Part shown: piece after piece, positions 10,293 to 34,961 of the stretch
Numbering within the stretch: position 1 is the stretch's first letter
Layout: each line of letters starts with the position of its first letter
From: Lachnospiraceae bacterium
Lineage (GTDB): Bacteria; Bacillota; Clostridia; Lachnospirales; Lachnospiraceae
DNA: 57,061 nucleotides
Direction: 5' to 3'
Assembly (NCBI GenBank): GCA_017476665.1
Contig: JAFUZJ010000069.1
Location: 1 to 57,061, forward strand
Position numbers and translations under genes: made by a program
Notes under the pieces: model-generated
What the model saw: the letters and a program-made list of their open reading frames with translations, nothing else
Told to the model about the DNA's origin: nothing
Databases searched by the model: none

Positions 10293-10345
10293 CTTGCTAC
10301 CTCAGTTTTATGATTATTTTAGCCTGCTTCGCAAGCATACATTAA

Positions 10346-16751: not shown

Positions 16752-16827
16752 GTTTTCCCCCATTCCGATCATTGCTACATTGATCTCACCTGTTTACAGT
16801 ACTCCCTGCTTCTCTACTCATAATATC

Positions 16828-18241: not shown

Positions 18242-18326
18242 TATACTCCCTCCCTTTGAAATGACTCTAAAATTTACAGTTATTTGGTCAATCTGACCGC
18301 TTATCATACGTAGTTTGGAAAACCTT

Positions 18327-19048: not shown

Positions 19049-21556
19049 TCACCTGCGTATCTCAATCTTCCCTGTACTGCCGTCCATGTGGATCACATCC
19101 CCGGTGTGCACAGCCTCCAAAAGCCCATTCACGCCCACAACAGACGGTATCTTCAGCTCCCGCGAAATGATGGCAGTATGCGACAGGAGCGACCCCTTCT
19201 CCGAGATCACGCCTTTCGCCGTAGCGAGCAGAAATACCCAGCCCGGATCCGTCATCTTTGTGACCAGAATTTTATCCGCCACATCTTTCGCTTCATTGAC
19301 ATTCTCGATCACCAATGCCTCCGCCGTCACCTCGCCGTTGGAACAGGGAACTCCTTGCAAAAATGCCTCCGACTTCCGCGGTCTGTAAGCATTGACAGAC
19401 GTATGATGCTTGTCAAATTCCCGCTCCGCAAAGATCAGTCTGGAATACGCCGGCAGCTTTGCATACAGCTGATATTGTGCCTTACGTTCCGCAATCTGTT
19501 CCTTCGCAGCATGCCCGCCTGCTGCCTTTTCCTTCGCGGCGTGCCCGCCCGCAGCCTTTTCCTGCCTGTCCGCACCTTGGCTGACCAGCCCGAAAACCTC
19601 CTCCACACTCAGCCAGAACACATCCTCCGCATCTTCTATGATCCCATCCTGCGCAAACCCTTCTCCGATCGCAGTAAAGATCAGCCTCACGATCCCATAG
19701 ATCCGGCTCCGGTTCAGCCTGGAGATCTCCCGGTTGGCAATCCCCAATGCCGCCCGCTTTTCCAGAAACCGCACAATGCGGTCTGTTTTTTCCTGATGCT
19801 TCGTTCCCTTTCGATGCAATTCCTCGTAAATCTCTTGTAACCGCGCTGGATCTTTCCGATAACTCATGATCCGCTCCTCCAAGAGCTCCGGATTGCTGCG
19901 AAAGGTCTTACTCTCTAACTTCAGTTCCTCCAGATTCCGATCCCCGTAAATCTGAATATATTCCTTTTTCTGCCGCTCATACTCCTCCGCAGTCAGGCTG
20001 TCTTTCCGGTACGCCAGCTCCACCAGTGCCCTGATGGGCTTCATACTCTCAATGTCCGAAATATCCGAAATGTAGCGGTTCATGTCCTGCTCCGCCTTGC
20101 CATATTTCTTTCTCAGCCGACTCTTCAAAAGCCCGGTAAACACAAAGGCATACATATCGTTCAGCAGCGTCACATCCCACACATCAAACAACTTCGCCTT
20201 GATCTCCTGATACATAGCAAGCAGTTCGGCCGGACTTTTCTCCGCATTGTACTGTGCATAAAACCGTGCCTGGATCCGTTTGAAATCCTCGTTCAGTTTC
20301 CGCATGTTGCGCGGCACCCGCGCCATCTCGTAAAAAGAATTCACATACGTCATCATCCGCACAAAGGGCGAAAGCGCCACCTCATCCCCGTCGTAGCTCT
20401 TATGCTGTACCCCCAGCATCTCCTGCCAGACCGGAATGATCTTTTTGTGAAAGGGCAGGAATTTCAGCACCGTATACCAGTTGCTGATCTTGTAATACAC
20501 CCTGCCGTTTGCATGCCCCACCATATTTTGAAAGACATCCGCATGCTTATTTAGCTCTCTGTCATTTTTTAGCACCCGCGCACTGACGCCGCGAAACACG
20601 CCGCCATACACAATATTCACAAACGAAATGGTAAGCGGCAGCGACAACCCCGGGTAACTCTCCACGATATTGCTGTTGTCCAGGATCAACGGCGCGTCCG
20701 TCTTCAACGTCGTGATCGGCCTTGCCTGCAGAATAAAAAGTTCCCCGCCCCGGATGGCAAATTCAATGTCGTACTCCCCACCAGTTTGCTTATTTTCCCT
20801 ATTTTCTATCTCTCCGACATCATCTACTCTGCTCTCGTCCCCGGCAGTTTCATTGCGCCCCAATATCTTCTTGATCCGCTCCGCCGTGCTGATCAGTTCC
20901 TCGACCTGTTTGGGTGAAAGCAGATTTTCTTCCCCCTCGTAATAATACAGTCTGTCTGTCAGATTATAATAATAAGTGGTAGTCGTCACCCTGTCGGACA
21001 CAACGCCTTCCCCCAGCCCTCTGCCCACGGTGATGACACTCTCATTCAGTATCCCCTGGGGATTCGCCGTAAACATCACCCCGGAAAGCTCCGCATCCAC
21101 CATACACTGCAGGATCACGTCCATGCGCAGCCCGCTTTTCCCCTGACCCTTCGTACATTCGTTTGCATACTTTCCGTGAACATGATCGGCTTGATTTTCC
21201 GCCCGCTCTCGGGATGCATACGCCTGTACATGCTCCGCCGCCAGCGACTGCACACACTGTCTGACTTTCTCCCTGCAATCCTCCCTGGGAACATTCAGAT
21301 ACGTGTCAAACTGCCCCGCAAAACTCTGCCCCACACCGTCCTCCAGACCGCACGCGCTCCGCACGGCATAGCGCACGTCCGATTCATCCTGGTTTTTCTC
21401 TGCAGAGGGAAAAGAAAGCTCCAAATCCTCCCGGAAACAGATTTCCGGCAGTTTCTTCTCCTCTACGATCTCTTCAAAACGGATCACCCTAAAATCAGGC
21501 ACCCGGATGCCGTTCTCTTTCATTTTTTTTAAATTTAATATTTTATTTCCGGGCAT
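19049..21556 (-). CDS. PEP/pyruvate-binding phosphotransferase, rifampin-phosphotransferase layout (copy 1)
   Basis: 835 residues. An ATP-grasp domain fills about 1-290 (AVRSACGLEDG, QSFAGQFDTYLNV, LSGVMFTANPQ, GLGEGVVS, DIEFAIRGGELFILQARPIT). A long helical middle domain follows (about 300-720), then a phosphohistidine swivel domain with LLSHTAIISRE, catalytic His near 793. The PEP-binding TIM barrel of true PEP synthase is absent; the order matches rifampin phosphotransferase, in which the middle domain binds a hydrophobic acceptor and ATP donates its beta-phosphate via the His. It is the last gene of the lipid/ABC operon, starting three bases after the previous stop. A 30-base tandem duplication adds ten residues near 680. 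The acceptor is unknown; a lipid alcohol fits the neighbours. Confidence 0.88.
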   Translation of the reverse strand: MPGNKILNLKKMKENGIRVPDFRVIRFEEIVEEKKLPEICFREDLELSFPSAEKNQDESDVRYAVRSACGLEDGVGQSFAGQFDTYLNVPREDCREKVRQCVQSLAAEHVQAYASRERAENQADHVHGKYANECTKGQGKSGLRMDVILQCMVDAELSGVMFTANPQGILNESVITVGRGLGEGVVSDRVTTTTYYYNLTDRLYYYEGEENLLSPKQVEELISTAERIKKILGRNETAGDESRVDDVGEIENRENKQTGGEYDIEFAIRGGELFILQARPITTLKTDAPLILDNSNIVESYPGLSLPLTISFVNIVYGGVFRGVSARVLKNDRELNKHADVFQNMVGHANGRVYYKISNWYTVLKFLPFHKKIIPVWQEMLGVQHKSYDGDEVALSPFVRMMTYVNSFYEMARVPRNMRKLNEDFKRIQARFYAQYNAEKSPAELLAMYQEIKAKLFDVWDVTLLNDMYAFVFTGLLKSRLRKKYGKAEQDMNRYISDISDIESMKPIRALVELAYRKDSLTAEEYERQKKEYIQIYGDRNLEELKLESKTFRSNPELLEERIMSYRKDPARLQEIYEELHRKGTKHQEKTDRIVRFLEKRAALGIANREISRLNRSRIYGIVRLIFTAIGEGFAQDGIIEDAEDVFWLSVEEVFGLVSQGADRQEKAAGGHAAKEKAAGGHAAKEQIAERKAQYQLYAKLPAYSRLIFAEREFDKHHTSVNAYRPRKSEAFLQGVPCSNGEVTAEALVIENVNEAKDVADKILVTKMTDPGWVFLLATAKGVISEKGSLLSHTAIISRELKIPSVVGVNGLLEAVHTGDVIHMDGSTGKIEIRR
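19501..19560. repeat. 30-bp tandem duplication in the phosphotransferase gene
   Basis: Two adjacent 30-base units differ at four positions and encode two copies of an AAGGHAAKEK-like decapeptide in the middle domain of phosphotransferase copy 1. The differences show it is not brand new. Confidence 0.85.
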
Positions 21557-21558
21557 CC

Positions 21559-22320
21559 CTAAACCGAGTCCTCCTGAATCAATTCGATATCACATCCGTT
21601 CAGATCAAATTTTAATTCATACGCATCCTGTTCCGTTACGATGACGATCGACTCATCATCCTTGATCCCTTCCAAAGGCAGCCATCCCGTGACCGCTTTC
21701 CTGTCAGGATAGATCAGGCGCACTTTATAACGGTCGTTCATGCCGATCACTTCCTGTTTTCCATTGCTGCCATATAAAACGAATCTTTCACCGCCTCCAA
21801 TTCCTACATCCTCAAAATGTACAGGCGCAGTATAGATGCTTTCCGGATCGATCTCCGATTCGTTTAGTTGACGGAAATACGCTTCTGTCAAAAGCGTTTC
21901 AAACATATGCAGATGTTCCTTTTGTTTTTTCAGATCTGTACCAAACAAAAGATTGGCAGCATACATATCGATAGGCACACACTTACGATCCGTCCTGACC
22001 TTGCATGAGATCCGCGTTCCGAGAAATCCTTTTTGAACGCTTACGTCCGTCCTGTTTTCCGGCAGGACCGTATATGCATGATGTGCATTTCCGAATAAAT
22101 CCAGGATCACAACCACCATCTTCCTTGACCTGGTCAATGCCACATATGCTTTACATCTATCTGTAGACTGCACTCCGGGCCGTGGCATCCGGGAAACTCT
22201 CTTTCCGAACGGTTCTCGCAGATCCACAAGGATCACACTGCGCATCGCACAGGTATAATCATTGTAATTAAGCTTTTGCCTGATATATTTTTTGAAAGCA
22301 TCATATCCGGAAGATTTCAA
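21559..22320 (-). CDS. Unrecognised 253-residue protein of the lipid operon
   Basis: No family recognised. A basic N-terminal half contains short beta-like runs, and a C-terminal region (about 165-250) has alternating hydrophobic strands (RYKVRLIYPDRKAV, GWLPLEGIKD) that resemble a small barrel. There is no signal peptide or membrane helix. The start appears to be TTG at 22320 with GGTGG upstream, since an in-frame stop precedes it; the next ATG is 25 codons in and has no ribosome site. It lies 38 bases after the UbiA gene and three before phosphotransferase copy 1, so it belongs to the operon and may be an accessory to either. Confidence 0.6.
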   Translation of the reverse strand: MKSSGYDAFKKYIRQKLNYNDYTCAMRSVILVDLREPFGKRVSRMPRPGVQSTDRCKAYVALTRSRKMVVVILDLFGNAHHAYTVLPENRTDVSVQKGFLGTRISCKVRTDRKCVPIDMYAANLLFGTDLKKQKEHLHMFETLLTEAYFRQLNESEIDPESIYTAPVHFEDVGIGGGERFVLYGSNGKQEVIGMNDRYKVRLIYPDRKAVTGWLPLEGIKDDESIVIVTEQDAYELKFDLNGCDIELIQEDSV

Positions 22321-22358
22321 TCACGACTCACCACCTTATTCTTTGATACGCTGTTTTC

Positions 22359-23258
22359 TTAAATCTTTCCCACCAGCAAAAATACCACAATCGTGAGCAG
22401 CATCGTGCTCTCCTGCAGATACGTGTACCGCTCCACCTTGTCCACCAGCACGAACTGCTCCGGATCTTTGATAAACTGCACAAACTTCCATGTCATCCAG
22501 GACACCAGCAGGATCAGCACCGCCACGGAGATTTTGTTCAGCCGCCACACCAGAATGATGTTCGTGATGATATCCACAATCGTCAGGATCAGCACAAACC
22601 GGGTGGACTTCCGGTATCCGAACAGCTTGGAATAGGTCGTATAATCGTTCTCGTCCTTAGGCGCCTTGATCTTTCTGGATACCTCCCAGATCAGCGCCGG
22701 GAAATACAGCGTCCACAGCGCCATCACCGTGGCGATCGTCACAAAGGGCAGCTGATACTTGATCACGGTAAAAGAGATAATATACAGATTCACAAACATC
22801 TGCACTGGATTGTGGGTCACCAGCGCCAGCGGGAGGCTGGGCTGGATCTTTGCCTTCTGAAAAAACCACTTACTCATCAGATACCCGTAAAAATACAGGA
22901 TCATGCAGAACACAAAGTTATTCAAAAACAGAAAATTCAGGACTAGCGCCACCGCTTCCACGATCGCGCAGATGATCACCACATCTTTCTTATATACTCT
23001 GCCGTCCGCCAGCGGTCTGTCCGGAAACAGCACCTTGTCTGTCTCAAAGTCCTTCAGGTCATCCGCAATCCTAAGCCACAGCAAAAAGGCAAATACGGTG
23101 AACGCACCGATGAACTCCTGGATCCCGATCTGAAATTTTGTGATCCCCTCATTCAGCAAAATAATAAAGTGGATCTCCCCGAACACAATGCCGCCCAACA
23201 CCAGCCTCGGCAGGATCGGGTAACGCTCCTTAAAATAGATATGTAATCTCTTAAACAT
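22359..23258 (-). CDS. UbiA-family prenyltransferase
   Basis: 299 residues with about eight membrane helices. The first Asp-rich motif DDLKDFETD lies at about 66-74 and a second acidic motif (PKDENDY) in the later loop, the Mg-pyrophosphate sites of UbiA enzymes. Members join a polyprenyl diphosphate to an acceptor (quinone ring, sugar phosphate or, in archaea, geranylgeranylglyceryl phosphate). I use the ATG at 23258, with GGAGAG upstream; it overlaps the psd stop by eight bases (ATGTTTAA). No quinone genes are nearby, and the lipid-head-group neighbours make a glycerophosphate-type acceptor worth testing. Substrate unknown. Confidence 0.85.
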   Translation of the reverse strand: MFKRLHIYFKERYPILPRLVLGGIVFGEIHFIILLNEGITKFQIGIQEFIGAFTVFAFLLWLRIADDLKDFETDKVLFPDRPLADGRVYKKDVVIICAIVEAVALVLNFLFLNNFVFCMILYFYGYLMSKWFFQKAKIQPSLPLALVTHNPVQMFVNLYIISFTVIKYQLPFVTIATVMALWTLYFPALIWEVSRKIKAPKDENDYTTYSKLFGYRKSTRFVLILTIVDIITNIILVWRLNKISVAVLILLVSWMTWKFVQFIKDPEQFVLVDKVERYTYLQESTMLLTIVVFLLVGKI

Positions 23259-24144
23259 GTCTCTCTCCGATTTTTTCCCCATAGCGCACGACGGTCTCAA
23301 TCCCCTCCGCGCTCATCCGCACAATATCCTCATCCAGATCCGCCGCACCCTTTTGCAGCAGCACAATGATCGTAGAACCGCCGGGTTCGAAAAATCCCTT
23401 CTCCTCCCCCTTCTCAAACTCCCTGACCTTCCGGTTCCGGATGCGCCCCACCAACAGCGCGCCGACTTCGATCTGGATCACCCTGCCGAAATGCTCCGTC
23501 TGATACCCGTTGACCACGCGGGAATTCTCTTTATAAATCTTATGATCCTTCGAGATCGAGCTCACCGTGTGCAGCTTCCCTTTGACGGAATATCTGGCCG
23601 TAAGCCTGCCCCGATCCAAAAAACAATACCTGTGATAGTCGTCCATGCAGAGCCGGAATACCAGGCAGCGCCCGCCGCTAAAGTCCGCCGGATTGATCCG
23701 ACTGCCCGTCTCCGAACACTTTCTGTCGCCGCAGTCCAGCAGTTCCGCCACCATATAGTCGCTTCCCTTCACCCGGACCATCAGACCGTCACTGATCTCA
23801 TACGCCAAAAGCTTCGCGTCCGCCGGCGAGATCAGCGCGTTCTCATTCCTGTCGATCTGCCTGGCCCCAGGTCGCAATTTCCGGGTAAAAAAATCCGAAA
23901 AGGACCGATACGCTCTGTCCTCAAAATCTTCCATCCGGATGCCATGCTCCCTGATAAACTCCGGGATTTTGGCTGCACTCGCAGGCTGCCTGTTATACCA
24001 GCCATAGATCCGCGATGTGCCCGGAGAGATCACTAATTTTAACAACATCCTGCCAAGCGGATTCCCGTACAGAAACTGTAGCTTCTCCTGCCCATACTGC
24101 TGTATTTCTATGTAAGTCTTACTCTGTCTGTCATAAACCTTCAC
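23251..24144 (-). CDS. psd: Phosphatidylserine decarboxylase
   Basis: 297 residues, the length of the bacterial/mitochondrial type rather than the short archaeal form. The self-cleavage motif appears as PGGSTIIVLL with the pyruvoyl-forming Ser near 255, and DDYHRYCF with the conserved His lies near 165. It converts phosphatidylserine to phosphatidylethanolamine at the membrane. The start is GTG at 24144, preceded by AAGGAG. Its place between a phosphatidylserine-synthase-like gene and a UbiA gene, with a CDP-lipid synthase in the same operon, supplies a full serine-to-ethanolamine head-group route. The true lipid backbone may not be diacylglycerol. Confidence 0.92.
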   Translation of the reverse strand: MKVYDRQSKTYIEIQQYGQEKLQFLYGNPLGRMLLKLVISPGTSRIYGWYNRQPASAAKIPEFIREHGIRMEDFEDRAYRSFSDFFTRKLRPGARQIDRNENALISPADAKLLAYEISDGLMVRVKGSDYMVAELLDCGDRKCSETGSRINPADFSGGRCLVFRLCMDDYHRYCFLDRGRLTARYSVKGKLHTVSSISKDHKIYKENSRVVNGYQTEHFGRVIQIEVGALLVGRIRNRKVREFEKGEEKGFFEPGGSTIIVLLQKGAADLDEDIVRMSAEGIETVVRYGEKIGERHV

Positions 24145-24174
24145 CGGTTTCTTTTCTCCTTACAAAACACATTT

Positions 24175-24726
24175 TTAATTGCTTCCGTAATTGTATATTA
24201 CAATTCTTCCCGTATCAGGCCGCGCAACAACTGCACTGATCCTGACCCCGGCACCACGGTAGCCATCATAGTATAGGATCGTGTAATCCATGATGTCATC
24301 ATCGATCACATATTGGAATCCGGATTTGGGAAAACCGATATAATACCCATAATCGTCATAACAATCAAATGTTTCAGAAACTTTTTTCCCCTCAAAATGC
24401 AGTTTATCATAATACTCCGGATCCCTGTGAATATTCGCAATAACACTCATAAATTCGTCATATTCCTGCCCTGTAAGGGTCATTGCAGCTACCGACCGCG
24501 CTGCAAATCCATAATTTTCACATTGAAATCTGAAATCCTGTGCCCCCACAGGTAATTCCAGAAAGAGAAATCCTCCACTGCCGGTTTGATATGCTCTGTC
24601 GCTATAGGTTTGAAATGATTTTCCCCGCCAATGTCCCAAGTCCCCACCATAATGAAAAATTACATAAAATAATAAAAATATAAGTACTGCAATAACAATG
24701 CCTTTCTTTTTCTTTATACCTTTCAT
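24175..24726 (-). CDS. Membrane-anchored small protein, unknown
   Basis: 183 residues: a lysine-rich start (MKGIKKKKG), one hydrophobic helix at about 10-28 and an extracytoplasmic domain rich in Tyr and Asp. This is a signal anchor with the bulk outside. I do not recognise the domain. It lies between pssA-like and psd genes with about 22- and 30-base gaps, so it is part of the lipid operon and may be an accessory or sensor. Confidence 0.65.
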   Translation of the reverse strand: MKGIKKKKGIVIAVLIFLLFYVIFHYGGDLGHWRGKSFQTYSDRAYQTGSGGFLFLELPVGAQDFRFQCENYGFAARSVAAMTLTGQEYDEFMSVIANIHRDPEYYDKLHFEGKKVSETFDCYDDYGYYIGFPKSGFQYVIDDDIMDYTILYYDGYRGAGVRISAVVARPDTGRIVIYNYGSN

Positions 24727-24748
24727 CCCCGAGCCTGCTCCTCATCTG

Positions 24749-25363
24749 TCATCCCAAAACCGCCAGATACACCGTCAGCATTCCGACTGCCGCCGCCGCA
24801 AAGAATACATATGCTATACCCTTTGGTTTCACCACCGGTACCTTCAGTATCTCCAGCACCGTCACCACAAAAACCAATAGGGTAAATAAGATTTCGAATT
24901 GCTCCGCCTGCAATGTATAACTGCCCAGATTCGCCAAAGAAAAGATCAGCGCGGAATAGGTCACCGGCAGCCCTGTATAATACTTGACCGGTCCGTTCTC
25001 ATCCGCCGTCACCACATTAAAATATCCCAGCCTGGCGATCCCGCTAACCGCAAACAACACATACAGCCCGATCTGATAGCCTTTGGTAAATCCCATGGCA
25101 CAAAAAATAGTAATCGGCAGCGCGATAAAGCTCACCACATCCACCAGCGAATCCAGCTGGATCCCGAACCGTTTTTCTTCCTCCGTGCGCTTCACCCTTC
25201 TCGCCACGGCGCCGTCAAACAGGTCGCACACTCCCGCCACAATCAGACAGGCATAAGCGTAATTCAGTTTTCCGCCGGAGACCGCCACGCACATGCCGAG
25301 CACGGCAAACGCCATCCCCACGTAGGTCAGGATCACAGATTTATTCCACATTCCAAGAATCAT
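24749..25363 (-). CDS. pssA: CDP-alcohol phosphatidyltransferase, phosphatidylserine-synthase-like
   Basis: 204 residues with six or so membrane helices. The family motif is complete: DLFDGAVAR followed by G-IQLD-SLVD at about 45-75, giving the Asp cluster that binds Mg and CDP-lipid. It would join serine to a CDP-activated lipid and feed the decarboxylase encoded two genes on. I chose the ATG at 25363, which has AAAGGTG seven bases upstream and gives the usual family N-terminus; the ATG at 25402 overlaps the previous stop and lacks a ribosome site. Serine as the alcohol is inferred from the neighbour psd. Confidence 0.88.
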   Translation of the reverse strand: MILGMWNKSVILTYVGMAFAVLGMCVAVSGGKLNYAYACLIVAGVCDLFDGAVARRVKRTEEEKRFGIQLDSLVDVVSFIALPITIFCAMGFTKGYQIGLYVLFAVSGIARLGYFNVVTADENGPVKYYTGLPVTYSALIFSLANLGSYTLQAEQFEILFTLLVFVVTVLEILKVPVVKPKGIAYVFFAAAAVGMLTVYLAVLG

Positions 25364-25401
25364 CTCGTCACACCTTTCATCGACCCCATCTGACAATGTC
25401 A

Positions 25402-27897
25402 TTATTTCTTCTGTAATGTCACGGTCCCCGTAGTGCCGTCCACCGTGATGATCTGTCCGTCCCTGATCTTCTTCATGGCGTCCTTACAGCATACGATCGC
25501 CGGAATCCCATATTCCCTTGACACAATTGCCGCATGACACAGGATCCCGCCGTACTCCGTCACAATTCCGGAAAGGATCGCAAACTTCGGCGTCCAGCCG
25601 GTATCTGTGAAACGGGTCACCAGGATATCACCCCTCTGCAGCCTGTCGATCTGCGAGAAATCCTCGATCACTCTCGCCACACCTGTCACTGTGCCGTTGT
25701 TGGCGCCCAAACCTTTGATCCCATCGCAATCCGTCTGACCGCCTGCCCCCGGATTTCCTGCCTTTCCTGCTGCCATCTCCGAAAAGATCGTGCCGATCTC
25801 ATTTTCACTCATATAATTCCGGTATGCATTGTAATATCTCTTATTTTTGCGCACCAGTTCCTGAAGCCCCTCCGGATCCGCCTTGTGCTCAATGTAGTCC
25901 CAGAGATTGCCCACCTTTAAGAACCAGACATCCTCCCAGTTCTCCAACACGCCCTTTGCCTGCAGGCTCTTGGCATACTCTATGGTGTACACCCGCAGCA
26001 GGTAATAAAACCGGGTGGAAACATCGCGAAACTCCTCTCTCCACCAGAGCATGCTGCGCATGTTCGCCACTTTTTTGCGTATGCTTTTAAAGTTCCCCGG
26101 GGATACTTTTCCCGCGATGCTCTGCAGTACTTTCTCGTACATTTCCGCGCACTTTTCCTTGTCCGCCACCGGCGAATAAGAATCCTCCAGCGACACCATC
26201 TCCCGGATCATATCGATCATGACCTCCGGCTCCTCATAGTAACAGGGATAGGTGATGTCCAGCTCCTTGTCGGAGTGATAGCCGTACCGGTCGATGATCT
26301 GCTTTGCCTCAGCCCGGAAATCATATCCCGCTTCCTCGCCGCGAATCTTCCGGCTCAGATCCCACATCTCATAAAAAGGCAGCAGATGCGAAATATTGTC
26401 AATGCCGCCTAGCAGCGACAGATACTCGCTCTCCGAAACATATTTAAGCAGACTGTCCTTGTAAAGCGACTGATGTATGGTATTGATAAAAATCTGCCAG
26501 AAATAAGTGGTTTCACTCCGCCGATAAACTTTCTTCGTCAGATGATAAAAATCTTTTTTGATATTTGGGATCGATGCCTGCCCCGCAAGATGGCTGTCAT
26601 ACTTTTCCTTGTATTCGTTGTAGATCTCCAGCAGCTCGCTCTTGAAACGCTCTGCATTTCTTCTCCGATGATTCAGGATACGGGTCTGGTTCACCACGAT
26701 CTTCAGCATATGCGCCAGGGTCTGCGGCGTGACCTTCGTGGTCTCTCCGTCTCCTTCATAATTTCCGATGATACCGTACTCGTTGTCGAACTCACGCTCC
26801 TTATAGCCAATGATCTGACTCATGGTCTTTTTCACCGCGCTCATGTTCCAGTACGGACGCCCGTAGAACATCTGTCCCAGCTTCCGCGGCAGTTCCTCGT
26901 CCTTCAGGATCTCCGAACCCACAATAAATTTCCGCAAGGAATACTCCCAAATGTATTCATACAGACTCCACATGTACGGCGTGCAGACCGTTGCGGACAC
27001 GCCGCCGTCCTTGAAATCCGCCGTGGTCCACATATCCGCAATGCCGTTATACCGGATCCTTGTGATCCGCCTGGCCTGCAGCACATACAGCTTCCCGTCA
27101 CACACCGCAAATTCAATGTCACAGGGATACCCGAAGAACTGCTGCACTGCGGCAAACACTTCCCCGTATTGCTGCACCGCCTCCGTCGTCAAAAACCGGT
27201 TCCTGAGCCCCCGCCGGATCTCCTGTTGTTCATACCAGTCATAAAAATACTGCTCCGGTCTGGTCTTACCGCTGACAATCTTCTCTCCCAACCCTTCGGA
27301 CACCTCGATCACCATCTCCTTGTCCGCGCCCGAGGACGGATTCACCGTGAAACAGATCCCGCTGTACTGTGCAAGTACCATCTCCTGCACCACCACCGAC
27401 ATCTGCAGATCGTCCGTAGACAGTTCCGCATGATCTGCCAGGTAATGCAGCACCACCTCGCCAAACAGAGACTGATAGCAGCCCAGGATCTTTTCACACA
27501 GATCCTCTTTCTTCACATTCAGAAACGTATCATATTGTCCCGCAAAGGAGTACTGCTCCAGATCCTCCTTGGTGCCGCTGGAGCGCACGGCGTAAAGCCG
27601 CCCTTCCTGGGCAAGCGACTCCACCTGCGCCGCGATCTGCTCCGGCAGTGCAGCCTGCGCAAACAGTTCCCTGATCTCTTTGGACACCTGTCCCACCGTA
27701 TATCTCGTCAGATGCTTCAACGCGGCTTTGATCTTTTCCTCCAGACCGTTTGCCCGGATCGTCTCCTCATAGGCATCGCTGTCCAGTATAAATCCGCCCG
27801 GCACCTCAAACCCGTATTTTTTCATCTGCAGCAGGAATTTACCCTTGTTGCCCAGCTTTTCTTCTCTCGTCTCATCCTTTGCCAATCTTACGATCAT
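25402..27897 (-). CDS. PEP/pyruvate-binding phosphotransferase, rifampin-phosphotransferase layout (copy 2)
   Basis: 831 residues with the same order as the copy at the operon end: ATP-grasp (about 1-285; YAVRSSGTKEDL, SFAGQYDTFLNV, YSGICFTVNP, DIEFAVCDGKLYVLQAR), a middle domain beginning WTTADFKDGGVSATVCTPYMW, as in rifampin phosphotransferase, and a C-terminal swivel domain GGILCHAAIVSREYG with catalytic His near 787. No PEP-binding barrel is present, so PEP synthesis is unlikely. It is clearly diverged from copy 1, so the two may act on different acceptors or in sequence. GGGGTG lies seven bases before the ATG. It sits between the CDP-lipid synthase and pssA-like genes. Confidence 0.88.
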   Translation of the reverse strand: MIVRLAKDETREEKLGNKGKFLLQMKKYGFEVPGGFILDSDAYEETIRANGLEEKIKAALKHLTRYTVGQVSKEIRELFAQAALPEQIAAQVESLAQEGRLYAVRSSGTKEDLEQYSFAGQYDTFLNVKKEDLCEKILGCYQSLFGEVVLHYLADHAELSTDDLQMSVVVQEMVLAQYSGICFTVNPSSGADKEMVIEVSEGLGEKIVSGKTRPEQYFYDWYEQQEIRRGLRNRFLTTEAVQQYGEVFAAVQQFFGYPCDIEFAVCDGKLYVLQARRITRIRYNGIADMWTTADFKDGGVSATVCTPYMWSLYEYIWEYSLRKFIVGSEILKDEELPRKLGQMFYGRPYWNMSAVKKTMSQIIGYKEREFDNEYGIIGNYEGDGETTKVTPQTLAHMLKIVVNQTRILNHRRRNAERFKSELLEIYNEYKEKYDSHLAGQASIPNIKKDFYHLTKKVYRRSETTYFWQIFINTIHQSLYKDSLLKYVSESEYLSLLGGIDNISHLLPFYEMWDLSRKIRGEEAGYDFRAEAKQIIDRYGYHSDKELDITYPCYYEEPEVMIDMIREMVSLEDSYSPVADKEKCAEMYEKVLQSIAGKVSPGNFKSIRKKVANMRSMLWWREEFRDVSTRFYYLLRVYTIEYAKSLQAKGVLENWEDVWFLKVGNLWDYIEHKADPEGLQELVRKNKRYYNAYRNYMSENEIGTIFSEMAAGKAGNPGAGGQTDCDGIKGLGANNGTVTGVARVIEDFSQIDRLQRGDILVTRFTDTGWTPKFAILSGIVTEYGGILCHAAIVSREYGIPAIVCCKDAMKKIRDGQIITVDGTTGTVTLQKK

Positions 27898-27925
27898 ACG
27901 TCGTCACCCCGCTATCTGCCTTTGT

Positions 27926-28516
27926 TTAGAACATATTTTTCCTCAGCTTCATAAAATAGAGCATCATATTCAGTAAAATGTGTGTCCCCGCTCCCACCAG
28001 CACATAGAGCAGGTACAATCCGATCCCCAGATCATAAAACAGCCACACCACAAGCGCCACCCCAAACACGGAATCCGCCTGATCTAAGAACACGAAAAAC
28101 ACCTTCCTCGCACCGCTGATCTGCTTGCTCTGCGAGATATCCAGCCGCCTCTTTAGGAAGCTGTTGGGCAGTTCAAATAACGAATATCCTAACCCCAGCA
28201 GGATACCCACAAACACATTGTATCCCAGCCGGTTTTCATGATTTACGTAAAAGAAATTCCACGGTTCCAGCCCTGCCGCCCGGCACACCGCTCCCCAGAG
28301 GATCGCAAAGAGCAGATTCAGCATGACATAGCCGAACAGCCCCTTCCAGGTCTTGCTGTCCCCGAAAACCCTCCTGCCGTCGGTGAAGTTTCTGCCCCCG
28401 TCGATGGGTACTCTGGCAAACCGCATCACCGGAAGCTTGCACCAGACCATATTAAAGATCCCTGCCAACACCGTAGGCGCCAGCGTCACATACATCATTC
28501 CGATCACTCTAAGCAT
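27926..28516 (-). CDS. CDP-archaeol-synthase (DUF46/CarS)-like membrane enzyme
   Basis: 196 residues, about five membrane helices. Motifs DSKTWKGLFG and LDQADSVFG match the CarS family, which activates archaeal ether phosphatidate with CTP; relatives include CDP-diacylglycerol synthases and polyprenol kinases. The ATG at 28516 overlaps the permease stop by one base (TAATG) with AGGA upstream; a longer frame to 28648 exists but overlaps the permease by 130 bases. In this operon it would supply the CDP-lipid used by the PssA-like enzyme. Whether the lipid is an acyl or isoprenoid phosphatidate is not visible. Confidence 0.85.
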   Translation of the reverse strand: MLRVIGMMYVTLAPTVLAGIFNMVWCKLPVMRFARVPIDGGRNFTDGRRVFGDSKTWKGLFGYVMLNLLFAILWGAVCRAAGLEPWNFFYVNHENRLGYNVFVGILLGLGYSLFELPNSFLKRRLDISQSKQISGARKVFFVFLDQADSVFGVALVVWLFYDLGIGLYLLYVLVGAGTHILLNMMLYFMKLRKNMF

Positions 28517-29436
28517 TATTCCTGCCCCGCCTTTTTCTTCCCGGGTTTTCTGCCGCCGGAGGAATGCAGCGGATTCACCTTCCATGCCGCTGCCGCCATA
28601 AATACCAGCGAGAGCAGGATGATGCATATTGCAGACACAAACATCCACACCTTGCCCTGAGACAACAGATACGTTAACGGTCCCACCTCATCCAGATCAA
28701 AATTGGCTCCATTCAGCAGGCTCTCCCCTGTCATAATCTGTGTAAAATACTCCTCATAGAAAATGATGGGATTAAACAGCCAGAACACCATGGACTCTCC
28801 CATATAGTCATTTCCGTAGCTGCTGTATGCAAACAGTGCATGGATCAGGCTGGGAATAAATGTCCCGCCGAAAATGACAGCGTAAAACACAAAAGACAGG
28901 ATCACTGCAGCGATCGCCTTTCTGCACACGGAAGAACAGAAAATCCCAATACTCCCGGTAAAAAACGCCAGCATGATAATGGTCAGAATGAACGTGAACA
29001 GGTCAAACCAGCTCAAACCGCCCACCACAAAAGCAAGCGCCATGATAGGTGTGCTCGCCACCACAAAAAACAGGATTCGGATCACCGCGGAGGTCACCTT
29101 GCCAAGCACGATGGAAAACGGCGACATGCAGGTGGTCAGCATGATATCAAACGTCTGCCGCTCCTTTTCCCCTGAGATGGAACCTGCCGTCAGGATCGGC
29201 ACGATCAACATCACAATCCCAATCTGGGCGATCGCCACAACAGGAAATAAGTAAACCAGATAACTGTAGATATTGTTGCTGTAATAACTTCTGCTCTCTG
29301 CCTGTATAATCGACAATGCGATCAAAAATGCCACTGCCAGCAGCATTTCATACCCAAACAGGCCCCAACTGATCCGCATACTGCGGGCAGAAACCTGCAA
29401 ATCTTTTTTTATGATCGGATTTAATTTGATCTTCAC
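28516..29436 (-). CDS. ABC-2 type transporter permease
   Basis: 306 residues with six membrane helices, starting with a short cytoplasmic amphipathic stretch and containing the EKERQTFDIMLTTCMSPFSIVLGK segment (first twenty residues shown in part) typical of ABC-2 permeases. It starts with GTG at 29436, overlapping the ATPase stop as GTGA, so the two are translated together. It ends in a Lys/Gly-rich tail. With the ATPase it forms exporter 1; the GldG-like protein upstream probably joins this complex. Cargo is unknown; the lipid genes downstream make a lipid plausible. Confidence 0.88.
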   Translation of the reverse strand: MKIKLNPIIKKDLQVSARSMRISWGLFGYEMLLAVAFLIALSIIQAESRSYYSNNIYSYLVYLFPVVAIAQIGIVMLIVPILTAGSISGEKERQTFDIMLTTCMSPFSIVLGKVTSAVIRILFFVVASTPIMALAFVVGGLSWFDLFTFILTIIMLAFFTGSIGIFCSSVCRKAIAAVILSFVFYAVIFGGTFIPSLIHALFAYSSYGNDYMGESMVFWLFNPIIFYEEYFTQIMTGESLLNGANFDLDEVGPLTYLLSQGKVWMFVSAICIILLSLVFMAAAAWKVNPLHSSGGRKPGKKKAGQE

Positions 29437-30359
29437 TGCGCTCCACCTCCCGTCAACTGCATGAACAGAGACTCTAACGTTCCCGCCTCTCTGTAAAAAT
29501 CTGTCATGGTCACCTGGTTCTGTACCATATACTGGAGGAGCCGTCCGATCTGTTCCTCCGTTCCCTGATACCCCACCAGAATTTCATTTTCTCTCACCGA
29601 CTGGACCGTCACGCCCGCCTGCTCCTGCAGCAGCCGCACTGCGGGCTCCATCTCGGAGATCACACGGATATGCAGCTTCTGTCCGCCGCCGAAATGCTGC
29701 ATCACATCCTCGATCTTTCCTGCCGTGATCAACTGTCCCCGGTTCATGATGCCGATACTGTTACACATCTCGGAGAGCTCCGACAGGATATGGGAGCTGA
29801 TGATGATCGTCTTTCCCATGGAATGAAGATTTTTTAGGAGCTCCTTCATCTCCACCCTGGCTCTGGGGTCCAGCCCGGAGCTGGGCTCATCCAGGATCAG
29901 CAGCTTGGGATTGTGCAGCAGAGCCCTGGCCACACAAAGCCGCTGTTTCATCCCTCTGGAGAGGGTATCCACATAGAATTCTTTTTTGTCCGTGAGATTT
30001 ACCAGCTCCAGCAGATCGTCCGTGAGTTTCGCGATATCCCCGGAATCCATTCCGTACATGGAACCATACATGTCCATGTACTCCTTCACTTTCAGGTTGT
30101 CATACACGCCGAAGAAATCCGGCACGTATCCGATCATCCGCTTCATTTCCTTACTGCCCACCGGTGCGGAAGAATTACCGATCCGGACACTGCCGCCACT
30201 TGCTTTTAAAAGTCCGCACACGATCCGGATCGTCGTGGTCTTCCCTGCGCCGTTGGGACCCACAAAACCAAACAGATCCCCTTCCGGAATGTGGAGGGAG
30301 AGATGATTGACAGCCGTAAAGGAACCGTAATTTTTCGTCAGATCATTGATATATAACAT
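29433..30359 (-). CDS. ABC transporter ATP-binding protein (exporter 1)
   Basis: 308 residues. Walker A GPNGAGKT near 33-40, signature LSRGMKQR near 134-141, Walker B LLILDEPSSGLD near 153-164 and the switch His in ISSHIL. A C-terminal extension of about 90 residues is usual for ABC-2 ATPases. I chose the ATG at 30359, with GGAGGTG six bases before it, rather than the upstream frame to 30392. The gene starts 11 bases after the GldG-like gene and is coupled to the permease. Powers export by the neighbouring permease. Confidence 0.93.
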   Translation of the reverse strand: MLYINDLTKNYGSFTAVNHLSLHIPEGDLFGFVGPNGAGKTTTIRIVCGLLKASGGSVRIGNSSAPVGSKEMKRMIGYVPDFFGVYDNLKVKEYMDMYGSMYGMDSGDIAKLTDDLLELVNLTDKKEFYVDTLSRGMKQRLCVARALLHNPKLLILDEPSSGLDPRARVEMKELLKNLHSMGKTIIISSHILSELSEMCNSIGIMNRGQLITAGKIEDVMQHFGGGQKLHIRVISEMEPAVRLLQEQAGVTVQSVRENEILVGYQGTEEQIGRLLQYMVQNQVTMTDFYREAGTLESLFMQLTGGGAQ

Positions 30360-30370
30360 CCCGACACCTC

Positions 30371-32431
30371 CTATTCCACCGCGTAGAGACATTTGTAGGC
30401 TACCTCATAGCATTTGTCATCCACTACCTTGTCTCCGCTGTCTGTTACGCCTACCACGATCACTCTGTCCGGATCCTGATTCGAATACAGAGAGGCAATC
30501 GCCACGCCGATGGCGGAAAGCTGTCCAATCTGCTTATTGCTCCAATGCTTGTCATCATCATCCAGGCAGTCATACATAAATTGACTGGCGAGATTATAGC
30601 CGTTCAAATCCGCGTATATGGGGTTTGCCGTGCCGAGATCCGCCGTCTCCCCGTTTCTTAACTCTCCGTACACATAAGCGCTGCCGTCTGCAATCACGGC
30701 GTAATAAACAAAATCCTCGCCCGTTTCATTGGTCACCTGCCCGAATATCCTGCCGCCGTAATATCCCGAGCTGAAATAGGAGGAAGCTGCCGCGCTGGTC
30801 AGAATACTGTCACAGATGATCTTCCCGGAATTCTGATCCCGCCTGCTGTTCCGCTGTGCCCGGAAGAAGCAGTCCTCAAAACTGCTGCCCGGTCTGATGC
30901 CGAAATAATTGGCCCCTCCGGTCTTTCTCATATGATAGTAATAACTGCCTTCGTCGTCATTTGGGTCATAGCGATAGGAATAATTGTCCGAGACTCCGCT
31001 CACAAAATCATATCCTTCGGCAAGCTTTAAGTCCCACTCCCTATGATCCGCATCATAGCAATACAGGTAGGAAGTGTCCATGCCCCTCCCGGAGGTATTT
31101 TCCAGTGTCACGGAATACACTGAGGTATTCACCACCTTAAAACCCCGGCCCCCCAAAAAGACAAGCATGACGGCACAGAGCGTTGTCACAGGCACAAAAA
31201 CCCAGTATAATTCTTTCTTTTTTACAAATTTCAGGATCAGATACAGGATCGGTCCCACAAAGATCACATATAAAAAGATAATAAATTTCAAAAGCGTAAA
31301 ATTCAGCGCATTGCTGTTGTTGCCCCAGAACTTCATGATCCTGGTTAAATAACGCATGTTATCCGAATAATTATTGCTATCATACCGTACGGAAGCATAG
31401 TTATAGGCATCCAGGATCATATTGCGCATATAGGATTCCACAGTCCCATATCCATACTGGTACAGATCCGTCTGCCCCGAAAGCTGCGACAGTGCAAACG
31501 GCAATACCATGATAGCCCCATCTCCCTGGGAGCCCACCAACCCGCTCTCGCTGCTGTAATAGCTGGTGGAATATCTTTTTTGCACATCCTGCAATTCTGC
31601 TATGACAATCACCCAGTCCTCCTGCGCATTCTCCTGTACCGCGTATATGCTCCGACACTTCACGCCCAGGTAATCGCCGATCCCCGCAAGCACATCCGTG
31701 GCATAAGGGCCGGTGCCCACCATCAAAACACCGCCATTATAATTCCAGTCGGAAATGGCATCCCGTTCCTCCGCGGTCAGCACTCCGGTATTGTACTGAT
31801 CGATCACCAGATAATCCAACTCCTCCAGACCGTCCTTCAGATCTGTCTGGGTCATGTCTCTCAGCTTCACCGGATAGTTATTTCCATCCAGATAGAGTTC
31901 ATCTCCGCCCAGATCCAAATAGGTCAGCGCAGAAAAATCATCGCTCAGAATCCCCATATACAAATACTGGGAATCTTCTATCAGAAAACGGTCAAAGCTT
32001 CTCTCTGAAACCTTTTTCCCCTTTTTGTCCAACAGATAGACCTGCAGGCTTCCCTCCTGATTGGAATAGCGCAACATTTCCTCATCTTTTCCCACCCGGA
32101 CCGTATACTGTTTCCGGCTCCCCTGAGGCAGTGAAATCTCCGTGTCATATGCCGATAACATATAGCTTTGATACGGCGATTGTTTGGGCATCACTCTCAC
32201 GGTGCCATCCCAGTCCGGTCCGTTATTCTCAATGGTGATCTGAATGCTGAAACTGTCGCGATCCGATCCCACCAATTCCGCCTGAATACTGTAATACAGC
32301 GAATCCTGACTCTGTATGTCTTTGGCCTGCGATATCATGCCTCCCGCCAACAGCCCTATCCCGACCAACGCAGCCGTCATAAGCAGGAAAAATCCTACTG
32401 CCATTCCTCGTTTTGCGTTTCTAACCCTCAT
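30371..32431 (-). CDS. GldG-like large membrane protein of the ABC cluster
   Basis: 686 residues. An N-terminal helix (about 8-30) is followed by an extracytoplasmic beta region and a DUF4350/amidotransferase-like fold at about 180-280 (LDYLVIDQYNTG, GGVLMVGTGPYA), two helices near 380-430, and a further outer domain rich in Tyr, Ser and Gly. The layout recalls GldG-type proteins that sit beside ABC-2 exporters. The amidotransferase-like fold also occurs in the triple-VWA protein of the MoxR cluster. I chose the ATG at 32431, which has GGGAG six bases upstream. It lies between the two ABC systems. Function unknown. Confidence 0.75.
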   Translation of the reverse strand: MRVRNAKRGMAVGFFLLMTAALVGIGLLAGGMISQAKDIQSQDSLYYSIQAELVGSDRDSFSIQITIENNGPDWDGTVRVMPKQSPYQSYMLSAYDTEISLPQGSRKQYTVRVGKDEEMLRYSNQEGSLQVYLLDKKGKKVSERSFDRFLIEDSQYLYMGILSDDFSALTYLDLGGDELYLDGNNYPVKLRDMTQTDLKDGLEELDYLVIDQYNTGVLTAEERDAISDWNYNGGVLMVGTGPYATDVLAGIGDYLGVKCRSIYAVQENAQEDWVIVIAELQDVQKRYSTSYYSSESGLVGSQGDGAIMVLPFALSQLSGQTDLYQYGYGTVESYMRNMILDAYNYASVRYDSNNYSDNMRYLTRIMKFWGNNSNALNFTLLKFIIFLYVIFVGPILYLILKFVKKKELYWVFVPVTTLCAVMLVFLGGRGFKVVNTSVYSVTLENTSGRGMDTSYLYCYDADHREWDLKLAEGYDFVSGVSDNYSYRYDPNDDEGSYYYHMRKTGGANYFGIRPGSSFEDCFFRAQRNSRRDQNSGKIICDSILTSAAASSYFSSGYYGGRIFGQVTNETGEDFVYYAVIADGSAYVYGELRNGETADLGTANPIYADLNGYNLASQFMYDCLDDDDKHWSNKQIGQLSAIGVAIASLYSNQDPDRVIVVGVTDSGDKVVDDKCYEVAYKCLYAVE

Positions 32432-32477
32432 CGTTGTCTCCCAAACCTTTCCTCTAAAAACTTGCAAACTGATATTT

Positions 32478-34148
32478 CTATTCCATTTTGGATATATTTT
32501 CCACAATCTCATCCGAAGCGATCAACGCAACGCCCACAGAAGTTCCCATCAGTACAATGAACAGCACGATGTGATAGATTCCCATGGGCAGCTTCAGAAA
32601 TTCATACAGCCAGTATCCGATCCCTCCGACGATCACCACCGCGATCATCATCACCGCCATATTGAAAAAAGTATTGATGTTCCCACGCAGGGCACTGTAC
32701 TCGTCATCCCATGTCACATAAGGCGCCGTGCTGTCCAACCGCATGCCGATCGCAATAGAAAGCACATGTGCTGCCAGCATCAGGACAGCGAAAAACAGAC
32801 CGGTTCTTGCCGTGGCCCCCATATAATAGCAGACGATCCCATCTGTCAGGAGCAGAACAGGATAGGTGAACAGCAGGCTAACCGCGGCTTTTGCCCGGAT
32901 CTGGGTCCGATAGGACACCGGAATATATTTTAGCAGACTCAAATGCTGTCCTTCTCTTGTAAATGCTGTCGATGCAATGGAATTCATTGCCGTGGCAATA
33001 AATGCAATAGCGATCATCACCAAGGTCAGCAAAAATCCCGCGCGCTCTTTTCCCATACGGTACAGACGGATAAACTCCGCCATATTCCCCTGCTCCTTTG
33101 TGAAATGCAGCAGCAAAAAGGCGCCTGCCGGCCAGATCAGGTTCACATAAACACAATTGTTGGCGAACGCTTTCGTCCGAAGCAGCACATGGATTTCCTT
33201 TTTCAGACACGCCACAAACGGTGTATAGCGTCTGATCCGTTCATAATGGGTCTCCGCTTTTTTCACGGATCCCAGTGCCGCAGCCGTATAAAGTCCCTCC
33301 TGGTACCACAGTTTTCCCGCACAGTAGAGAATCAAGACCAATCCTGCGTTGGTCCCGAGATAAGCGGCCAAATATCCGACGCTTCCCCGTCCCACCGCCT
33401 CGGAAAGCCACGGCACCGGGAAAAAGAGCAGATTCAATGTCCGCAGGAACAGATCTCCCCCGCTTCCCAGGATTTCCACATAGGTCTCCACATTGATCTC
33501 TCCGATGCCCTTGATGGAAACCAGAAATAACGCCACGAAGGCCACCAGAAGCGCCGTGGACACCTGATCAAAAACTTTCCTGCTTCTCACATTTTTCAGA
33601 AATGCCATCAGGACCAGGCTGAACACGGTACAGTATACCATGGGAACCAGCGGGATCAACAGGGTTCCGGATATGGCCGCGATCACAGAGATCGGATCAA
33701 GCGCCGCTGCCCATCCCGCTTCTTCCGCCATAGCTATAAAGTATCCAATGAACACTGCCGCCAGCATAAAGCATTCCATCAGACTTTCCGCAATGTAGGC
33801 ATAAATGAATTTTGCCATCATCAGGTGATGTGCCGGGATCGGAAGCGTCACAAAGTGCTCCCTGTCGGATGAAAAAAACAGCACGCTGAAAATCACCCAG
33901 GTACCGAACACCATGGAGAACACCGACAGGATCTGCATGGCAAACAACATGCCGCCACCGGGATTTCCCGCCAGGATCAGCGCTTCCGTCATCACAAAAC
34001 AGCAAAATCCCACCACCACGCCGCAGGGAAACAGGATACCGAACACCGCCACCGCCGCAAGCACTCTGTACAAAGTGCGCTTCGGCAACATCATCTGCGT
34101 ATTTTTATATAAGATTTTGATCAAAGACCGGATTCCAGCCGGATTCAT
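32478..34148 (-). CDS. Large ABC-type permease (exporter 2)
   Basis: 556 residues with about twelve hydrophobic helices, two ABC-2-like halves in one chain. The segment RKVFDQVSTALL and the loop after helix 6 (YERIRRYTPFVACLKKEI) are typical of this long permease type in Firmicutes. GGAGG lies nine bases before the ATG and within the end of the ATPase gene, four bases upstream. With that ATPase it makes exporter 2. Substrate not evident. Confidence 0.85.
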   Translation of the reverse strand: MNPAGIRSLIKILYKNTQMMLPKRTLYRVLAAVAVFGILFPCGVVVGFCCFVMTEALILAGNPGGGMLFAMQILSVFSMVFGTWVIFSVLFFSSDREHFVTLPIPAHHLMMAKFIYAYIAESLMECFMLAAVFIGYFIAMAEEAGWAAALDPISVIAAISGTLLIPLVPMVYCTVFSLVLMAFLKNVRSRKVFDQVSTALLVAFVALFLVSIKGIGEINVETYVEILGSGGDLFLRTLNLLFFPVPWLSEAVGRGSVGYLAAYLGTNAGLVLILYCAGKLWYQEGLYTAAALGSVKKAETHYERIRRYTPFVACLKKEIHVLLRTKAFANNCVYVNLIWPAGAFLLLHFTKEQGNMAEFIRLYRMGKERAGFLLTLVMIAIAFIATAMNSIASTAFTREGQHLSLLKYIPVSYRTQIRAKAAVSLLFTYPVLLLTDGIVCYYMGATARTGLFFAVLMLAAHVLSIAIGMRLDSTAPYVTWDDEYSALRGNINTFFNMAVMMIAVVIVGGIGYWLYEFLKLPMGIYHIVLFIVLMGTSVGVALIASDEIVENISKME

Positions 34149-34152
34149 CTTT

Positions 34153-34887
34153 CTATTCCTCCCCTACATTGCCGCCTGTCATTTCAATGAAGATTGTCTC
34201 CAGACTCTTTCCGGGATGTGCCTCCTCCAGCTCCTGTATCGTACCCTGATACAAAAACTTTCCGTGATTGATGATGAGAATCCGATCACAGAGTTTCTCC
34301 GCCACCTCCAGTACATGGGTGGAAAAAAGCACCGCGTTTCCGTTGTCCGCATGTTTCCGCATCATCTGCTTCAGAGTGTAGGCAGCCGTGGGATCCAGCC
34401 CCGTCATAGGCTCGTCCAGTATCCACGCCGGCGGGTTATGTACCAGTGCCGCAATAATCATGGTCTTCTGGCGCATGCCGTGGGAATATTCCCGCATCGG
34501 CGTGCCCAGGGCATCCTCCATGCCGAAGCGCCCCACCAGCTCCTGTATTCTGTTCTTCCGATCCTCCACGGAAATGCCATACAGATCCGCAATGTAGTTG
34601 ATGTATTCCAATCCCGTCAACTGTAGCAGCACATCCGGGTCGTCCGCCACATAAGCAAAATTCTGCTTTGCCTGCACCGACTCTTTCACAATGTCGAACC
34701 CATGAATGGATGCTTTGCCCTCTTTGGGTTTCAGGATACCAGTGAGCATCTTGATGACGGTCGTCTTTCCCGCACCGTTCGGCCCTGCGAATCCTACGAT
34801 CTCTCCAGGCTTGATTTCAAACGAAAGATCGTCCACCGCCTTCGGTCCCTTTCCGTAAACCATAGATAAGTGTTCTGCTTTGATCAC
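34153..34887 (-). CDS. ABC transporter ATP-binding protein (exporter 2)
   Basis: 244 residues from a GTG start. Walker A GPNGAGKT near 37-44, signature YSHGMRQK near 133-140, Walker B WILDEPMTGLD near 153-163 and the switch His in FSTHVL. GTG at 34887 has GGAGG eight bases upstream; the ATG at 34938 would extend the protein through a terminator hairpin and is rejected. This is the first gene of the 13-gene operon. The T-tract of the terminator of the gene upstream runs straight into its ribosome site. Confidence 0.92.
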   Translation of the reverse strand: MIKAEHLSMVYGKGPKAVDDLSFEIKPGEIVGFAGPNGAGKTTVIKMLTGILKPKEGKASIHGFDIVKESVQAKQNFAYVADDPDVLLQLTGLEYINYIADLYGISVEDRKNRIQELVGRFGMEDALGTPMREYSHGMRQKTMIIAALVHNPPAWILDEPMTGLDPTAAYTLKQMMRKHADNGNAVLFSTHVLEVAEKLCDRILIINHGKFLYQGTIQELEEAHPGKSLETIFIEMTGGNVGEE

Positions 34888-34900
34888 CGAAAAATCCTCC

Positions 34901-34961
34901 AAAAAAGAGAAACCGTCCACCCCGGTCTGCCGACTCATTCACCGCAGACCGGACTGTACGG
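34901..34961 (-). terminator. Strong terminator/attenuator before the lipid-ABC operon
   Basis: On the minus strand a 9-bp perfect stem (34944-34952 with 34922-34930) is extended by a second 7-position stem with one mismatch (34955-34961 with 34913-34919), followed by TTTCTCTTTTTT at 34901-34912. It begins nine bases after the HerA-like stop. The T-tract touches the GGAGG of the next gene, so no promoter fits between; it could act as an attenuator. Confidence 0.8.

Follow-up and report, generated by a model that had tools for sequence, protein, structure and literature searches.

What is made by an operon that sets two enzymes of the rifampin phosphotransferase (RPH) type among genes for phospholipid synthesis, and which of its genes belong together? 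The question is raised by contig JAFUZJ010000069.1 of a Lachnospiraceae bacterium (assembly GCA_017476665.1), the whole analysed stretch of 57,061 nucleotides being referred to here as the window. An earlier note, made from the sequence alone, described in it a thirteen-gene operon joining two ABC exporters to an aminophospholipid route, and proposed that a modified, possibly isoprenoid, ethanolamine lipid is built, phosphorylated or salvaged, and exported. The conserved unit is not this thirteen-gene set; it consists of CarS, RPH2, PssA, Psd, UbiA, RPH1, the tandem-GNAT protein C3 and the acyl ligase AMPL. We hold with moderate confidence, on sequence and predicted structure, that these core genes may form one pathway dedicated to making an isoprenoid-containing aminophospholipid, with RPH2 as its putative lipid-alcohol kinase.

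The conserved gene unit

The genome collection was scanned with the UbiA protein, giving the best 80 of 94 loci (the named loci); these were picked via short exact UbiA peptide patterns, so that UbiA is present by construction and the set is biased to close relatives. Together with L094, L095, L096, L097, L099, L100, L104, L116, L118, L119 and L120 they make up a set of 91 loci, each selected on a match to UbiA or RPH1, and UbiA is present in all 91, by construction for most. L098 (contig edge), L101, L102, L103, L115 and L117 (taken as copies of loci among the 80 because their contigs are equally long) and the BtaA-type loci L121, L122 and L135 were excluded. Many loci are closely related to one another and the counts are therefore not independent events.

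Across the 91 loci RPH1 is found in 88, C3 in 85, Psd in 82, CarS in 81, RPH2 in 75, PssA in 69, AMPL in 62 and the lipid kinase DgkA in 8. RPH1 adjoins UbiA in 85 of its 88 loci and C3 adjoins RPH1 in 83 of 85. Of the 80 named loci, 67 contain all four of CarS, RPH2, UbiA (the query) and RPH1, a clustering that exceeds chance, with PssA and Psd mostly sitting between RPH2 and UbiA; UbiA is the gene most alike between loci, as judged by identities. Clustering of ORFs from the same 80 loci revealed two extra conserved genes 3' of RPH1, coding for a 355-aa GNAT-like protein (71/80) and an AMP-binding ligase (59/80). CarS is missing from 10 of the 91 loci, eight of them cut at a contig end and two (L065 and L085) with unrelated genes upstream of UbiA, the three loci lacking RPH1 end at or just after UbiA, and the six lacking C3 end near there. 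AMPL is truly absent nearby in at least 14 loci having 2.5 kb to spare. The earlier note had named lack of linkage between RPH-like and lipid genes in most genomes as evidence against its account; the linkage is strongly conserved, so the finding goes the other way. The core genes of the window are:

27926..28516, minus strand: CarS-like CDP-lipid synthase, 196 aa (PF01864, 58.9 bits, cut-off 22; DGRR..GD.KT motif at residue 46)
25402..27897, minus strand: RPH2, rifampin-phosphotransferase-type dikinase (Pfam end domains; swivel His in CHAAI)
24749..25402, minus strand: PssA-like CDP-alcohol phosphatidyltransferase (PF01066, 49.3 bits; D..DG..AR present)
23251..24144, minus strand: Psd, phosphatidylserine decarboxylase (PF02666, 161.6 bits; GGST motif; sole Psd match in the window's genome)
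22359..23258, minus strand: UbiA-superfamily prenyltransferase, 299 aa (PF01040, 39.6 bits, cut-off 34.2)
19049..21556, minus strand: RPH1, second dikinase subfamily (DNSNIVESYPG motif; swivel His793 in SHTAI)
15690..16772, minus strand: C3, tandem-GNAT acyltransferase-like protein (beyond the range first reported)
14170..15660, minus strand: AMPL, AMP-forming acyl ligase (PF00501, 174 bits; beyond the range first reported)

Co-occurrence was assessed in a single sample of 200 genomes from the window's family, taken to be Lachnospiraceae from the contigs that they share with named records and from the near relative L013. In 11 of them the UbiA profile finds a match, and CarS, at E 5.5e-10 or better, is matched in the same 11; for independent genomes the probability of this coincidence would be 2.6e-18, but these genomes are not independent. 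In 29 further genomes CarS is matched less strongly (E 6.5e-8 or worse) and for the most part incompletely, in ORFs of ~267-308 aa, which we infer to be CdsA. RPH1 is matched at 1e-60 in 11 genomes, ten of them shared with the UbiA set; G113, where RPH1 and C3 lie at the edge of a contig, lacks a UbiA match and carries two DAGK_prokar genes, and in the UbiA-positive G114 RPH1 is more distant. Psd occurs in 74 of the 200. At class level the UbiA family is found in 10 of 391 genomes, two queries giving the identical ten, and of 299 genomes sampled from the phylum only the window's own matches NF010118 at E 1e-20, so that a wide spread over the phylum, to which the search was kept, was rejected. 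Distribution is patchy, as a genome of the same genus (G022) has no UbiA or CarS match. A herbivore site (ruminant, deer, horse or other) is given in 27 of the 80 record titles of the named loci; 28 titles carry RUG-, RUI- or Lapin-type codes, which we take to denote rumen or rabbit sets, and 25 have neither site nor code. Human is named in none of the 80 titles as stored, in shortened form. An association with herbivores is treated as a lead, there being no background rate.

Single loci depart from the common arrangement. L029, L031, L033 and L045 have an extra gene of 338-364 aa, GNAT-like by eye (c17), between C3 and AMPL, and L087 has an additional RPH1-like match (36%) at 3905, upstream of CarS. 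The RPH2 ORF of Butyrivibrio sp. INlla14 (L027:6767) has just 604 aa, compared with ~835 elsewhere. In L074 (9441-12479) one 1012-aa ORF joins UbiA and RPH1; the start of RPH1 is missing, so that a deletion or assembly error is more probable than a true fusion.

Kinase exchange and the proposed lipid pathway

RPH1 and RPH2 have a three-domain architecture with a swivel His, the end domains being recognised by Pfam in both and the middle domain taken from the RPH1 model. In this model (pLDDT 71.9) the middle domain is helical, and Foldseek aligns RPH structures over most of its length, the best match, to RPH 5hv1, having E 1.6e-27 with a TM of only 0.43. The swivel His is invariant and is kept in both proteins. 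Neither RPH1 nor RPH2 reaches the RPH equivalog NF041857 (174.1 and 305 bits, respectively; cut-off 999) or phosphoenolpyruvate synthase TIGR01418 (147.1 and 275.5 bits; cut-off 739.75). Their likeness to rifampin phosphotransferase in sequence and fold would suit a housekeeping aminophospholipid operon carrying unrelated hitch-hikers, with the RPH-like proteins detoxifying rifamycin-like compounds. We consider this highly improbable, given the scores just cited, the presence of RPH1 in all but three loci, each of which stops at or just after UbiA, and the exchange of RPH2 with a lipid kinase described below; rifampin resistance as the main role was set aside on scores and gene context. RPH1 and RPH2 are 25% identical in alignment and differ in the DNSNIVESYPG motif, which suggests that their acceptors are probably not the same.

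Each of the 81 CarS loci contains either RPH2 (73) or DgkA (8), none having both and none neither; a count under an overlap filter, over the 72 loci with enough flank, gave 65 with RPH2 and 7 with DgkA. In the DgkA loci (L049, L080, L095, L096, L097, L099, L100 and L104), all without RPH2, a gene of 115-134 aa lies just upstream of CarS, and DAGK_prokar was confirmed in 8 of 8. At least two switches between RPH2 and DgkA are indicated on a UbiA tree built by a quick method, with many forks open. In whole genomes of the DgkA type the cluster copy is the sole DAGK_prokar gene (6/6), and in those of the RPH2 type such a gene is absent in four of five, the window's genome having one elsewhere. Given this mutually exclusive occupancy, RPH2 probably functions as a lipid kinase.

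Sequence relationships of the remaining core proteins point toward an isoprenoid lipid. The CarS family profile had a sole match among PDB sequences, CDP-archaeol synthase 5guf (E 3.8e-8), and archaeal CarS is reported in a passage of PMC9385802 to discriminate against phosphatidic acid in favour of its isoprenoid substrate, which speaks for a backbone of the isoprenoid type. UbiA scores 414 bits against NF010118 (cut-off 443), and the sole PDB match of its family profile is MjDGGGPS 6m31 (E 3.8e-5). For PssA the best NCBIfam model is archaetidylserine synthase NF038087 (76.8 bits, below the cut-off of 240), and its DLFDGAVAR at residue 60 fits what we take to be the motif of CDP-alcohol phosphatidyltransferases, D-x2-D-G-x2-A-R. 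The window's Psd has GGST, the cleavage motif given in a passage of PMC9385802 being LGST. The C3 model (pLDDT 91.6) is a tandem GNAT fold whose Foldseek matches include lysyl-phosphatidylglycerol synthases and MprF; a Z-ranked structure list held no recognised lipid acyltransferase, an absence that proves nothing, and the C3 profile had no match among PDB sequences.

From gene content, order, conservation, co-occurrence, exchanges and motifs we infer all the substrates, the ether linkage and the end product as follows. UbiA would join a prenyl chain to a glycerol-type acceptor through an ether bond, and AMPL would activate an acyl group for transfer by C3. CarS would produce a CDP-lipid, to which PssA would add serine, and Psd would decarboxylate this to ethanolamine. 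RPH2 would occupy a lipid-alcohol kinase slot, filled by DgkA in other lineages, and RPH1 would be a second phosphotransferase serving the UbiA step.

Several observations weigh against this pathway. The match between UbiA and DGGGPS is weak (26.4 bits over 94 positions). In the residue numbering of MjDGGGPS given in section 8 of PMC9385802, UbiA motif 1 has Asp at Asn62, with Asp D66 and D70 aligned and conserved; the motif-3 aspartates (D180, D183 and D187) are not visible, the region being unaligned by the profile, and the family conserves E192, R195, K196 and E203 in their place. In 12 carrier genomes nothing exceeds the cut-off for GGGPS (PF01884, 23.9 bits; highest score 21.6, for a 51-position fragment in G088) or for geranylgeranyl reductase (GGR; TIGR02032, 158.8 bits; best 38.1, a partial match at the profile start), and the window's own genome has no GGGPS match at E 0.001. 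The archaeal route is thus incomplete, and a full archaeal pathway was rejected. PssA is missing in 22 and Psd in 9 of the 91 loci, some of these at contig ends, and 30 of the 200 family genomes exceed the Pfam CarS cut-off, 19 of them belonging to the weaker group that was split off by E-value. N-acylation is the commoner activity of GNAT enzymes. Kinases of the DgkA family can accept polyprenol but also diacylglycerol, and the exchange alone therefore does not identify what RPH2 phosphorylates.

The fold of C3, common among N-acyltransferases, also fits a different product, an ordinary phosphatidylethanolamine with a diacyl backbone that UbiA would prenylate and C3 and AMPL would N-acylate on the amine or another acceptor; further in its favour, the cluster Psd is the sole Psd match in 8 of the 12 carrier genomes. 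We judge this distinctly unlikely, as it leaves unexplained both the tracking of UbiA by strong CarS matches and a variant cluster with no PssA or Psd nearby.

This variant occurs in three genomes of two families (G574, and G835 and G630 of one genus), in which UbiA, RPH1, C3-like and AMPL-like genes are kept (26-27% identity to the window for UbiA, ~30% for RPH1) together with DUF3419/BtaA and a membrane protein of ~445 aa. In these neighbourhoods the CarS, PssA, Psd and DgkA queries had no match and the RPH2 queries matched the RPH1-type gene only; DUF3419 and the 445-aa protein were found in none of the 91 CDP-type loci, and BtaA in none of the window proteins searched. Passages of PMC10685587 assign a putative betaine lipid synthase to a DUF3419-annotated gene and give neutral diacylglycerol and S-adenosylmethionine as the substrates of BtaA. 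From the gene content of the variant, UbiA, RPH1, C3 and AMPL look like a backbone module with an exchangeable head-group part. The ~445-aa protein beside BtaA (L121 and L122) contains motifs presumably those of dolichol and phytol kinases, the sole basis for calling it a kinase; a Pfam match of that kind is absent at a maximum E of 10, and the protein had no match among PDB sequences. It is a possible prenol kinase. A PHROG search of three proteins returned no match.

We tentatively prefer a version of the isoprenoid pathway in which the slot kinase and RPH1 would together convert a prenol to its monophosphate and then to the diphosphate used as UbiA donor. The BtaA variant retains a kinase-like gene, if the presumed motifs are read correctly, without needing a phosphorylated lipid for BtaA, which favours prenol as the kinase substrate and argues against a doubtful but possible alternative, in which RPH2 or DgkA would phosphorylate a finished neutral diradylglycerol to give the CarS substrate and only RPH1 would serve the prenyl donor. 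Gene position favours diradylglycerol: in 72 of 73 RPH2 loci (L094 being divergent) and 8 of 8 DgkA loci the slot gene adjoins CarS and has the same orientation. Since BtaA acts on neutral diacylglycerol (according to the passage of PMC10685587 cited above), the final product of the backbone module may be a neutral lipid.

Returning to prenol as the preferred substrate, herbivore-gut Clostridia might take up dietary prenols, such as the phytol of chlorophyll, convert them with RPH-type kinases to the phosphate and then the diphosphate, and form archaeal-like isoprenoid ether phospholipids of a bacterial membrane with UbiA and CarS. We regard this as unlikely; if true, RPH-family enzymes would natively be lipid kinases and genes would be supplied for the missing bacterial polyprenol salvage kinases. 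A search of the open-access PMC literature on phytol or tocopherol in rumen bacteria gave nothing judged relevant.

The ABC block and other genes of the window

The run of thirteen consecutive minus-strand ORFs (34938 to 19049) is real, with no internal stops and, as the earlier note had it, short or negative gaps (-35 to +38 bases). CarS overlaps the end of the permease gene before it by one base. Pfam confirmed the identities proposed for CarS (PF01864), the two RPH-like proteins (PPDK_N and PEP-utilizers in each), PssA (PF01066), Psd (PF02666) and UbiA (PF01040). Two ABC ATPases and one ABC-2 permease were also recovered; a 556-aa permease-like protein matched no Pfam or NCBIfam family, and the label GldG-like was not borne out for the 713-aa protein, which has no Pfam match over cut-off and no NCBIfam family. 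The permease beside it resembles GldF (E 9.7e-7), far below the cut-off of the GldF model. The remaining features are:

28516..34938, minus strand: upstream block of two ABC ATPases, two permease-like proteins and the 713-aa protein (same apparent operon here)
24175..24726, minus strand: small "anchor" ORF, 183 aa (no Pfam, NCBIfam or PHROG family)
21559..22320, minus strand: ORF of unknown type, 253 aa (no Pfam, NCBIfam or PHROG family)
16916..18307, minus strand: PD-(D/E)XK transposase-like gene (PF12784; between RPH1 and C3)

Export of the lipid product by the upstream transporters, as first proposed, draws on how closely the window's ABC block is spaced to CarS and on the position of the block upstream of CarS in a close relative (L013, 98% UbiA identity). 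Both permeases and the 713-aa protein occur, however, in this one locus of 91. Sequence extends 4 kb or more upstream of CarS in only 61 of the 81 loci that have it, and 5.7 kb in 17, so that few loci bear on the distal part of the block; the ABC ATPases were left uncounted because unrelated ABC ATPases match. The transporters were rejected as members of the conserved unit, lipid export is not supported, and we consider it very unlikely. An isoprenoid aminophospholipid with phosphorylating RPH-like proteins is still the best reading of the sequences, so that this part of the earlier proposal survives. The "anchor" and 253-aa ORFs are present in the window only (0/91 loci). Right on the linkage of RPH-like and lipid genes, the earlier account missed C3 and AMPL, which lie outside its range, the RPH2-DgkA exchange and the BtaA variant.

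In the window's lineage C3 and AMPL are separated from RPH1 by a plus-strand ORF and the transposase-like gene. The former (18571-19032, 153 aa) has a lipoprotein-like start by eye; the latter has a long repetitive Asn-Lys-Glu-Leu-Thr tail and was apparently inserted into the lipid cluster. L013 and L063 have after RPH1 an ORF grouped together (c35) and likened to it by length. Promoter-like sites (24, compared with 21.0 expected) and terminator-like sites (24, compared with 15.3, sd 4.2) were not used as evidence. Directly upstream of the ABC block a 565-aa ORF (34970-36667) has an ATPase-like start and a long Lys/Glu/Ala/Gln-rich region. Elsewhere in the window a MoxR-type AAA ATPase adjoins a DUF58 protein (9375-11314), followed by a 1484-aa ORF (4931-9385), and a 490-aa protein of this gut bacterium has collagen-like repeats (11335-12807; PF01391 match).

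Comparison with known systems

The earlier note knew of no described system with this gene set, and no account of it was found in the open-access PMC literature. If the isoprenoid pathway is correct, archaeal-type isoprenoid phospholipids would be synthesised without GGGPS in gut bacteria, relatives of an antibiotic-inactivating kinase would gain a native role, and candidate polyprenol salvage genes would be at hand. The natural gene exchanges make the pathway testable gene by gene.

The cluster RPH proteins share with rifampin phosphotransferase the ATP-grasp, helical middle and His swivel domains and the Foldseek match to 5hv1, but score far below the equivalog cut-off, are embedded among lipid genes and, for RPH2, swap with a lipid kinase. 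Salvage by polyprenol kinase and polyprenyl-phosphate kinase (VTE5/FOLK and VTE6) would follow the same logic if two successive kinases feed a UbiA-family enzyme here; these families are not known to be related to RPH-type kinases. According to a passage of a 2022 review (PMC9782597), only a few genes for polyprenol salvage have been identified. The BtaA route to betaine or homoserine lipids is approached by the three related clusters in which a DUF3419 protein replaces the CDP-lipid genes, whereas the 91 CDP-type loci have no BtaA match. PssA and Psd are common to the bacterial CdsA-PssA-Psd route to phosphatidylethanolamine, but the cluster has a UbiA-linked CarS and not a linked CdsA. With the archaeal ether phospholipid pathway it has in common a UbiA-type prenyltransferase, CarS, a serine transferase and a decarboxylase, here in one operon; it differs in lacking GGGPS and GGR over cut-off and in its UbiA motifs, and adds two RPH-type dikinases, a tandem GNAT and an AMP ligase.

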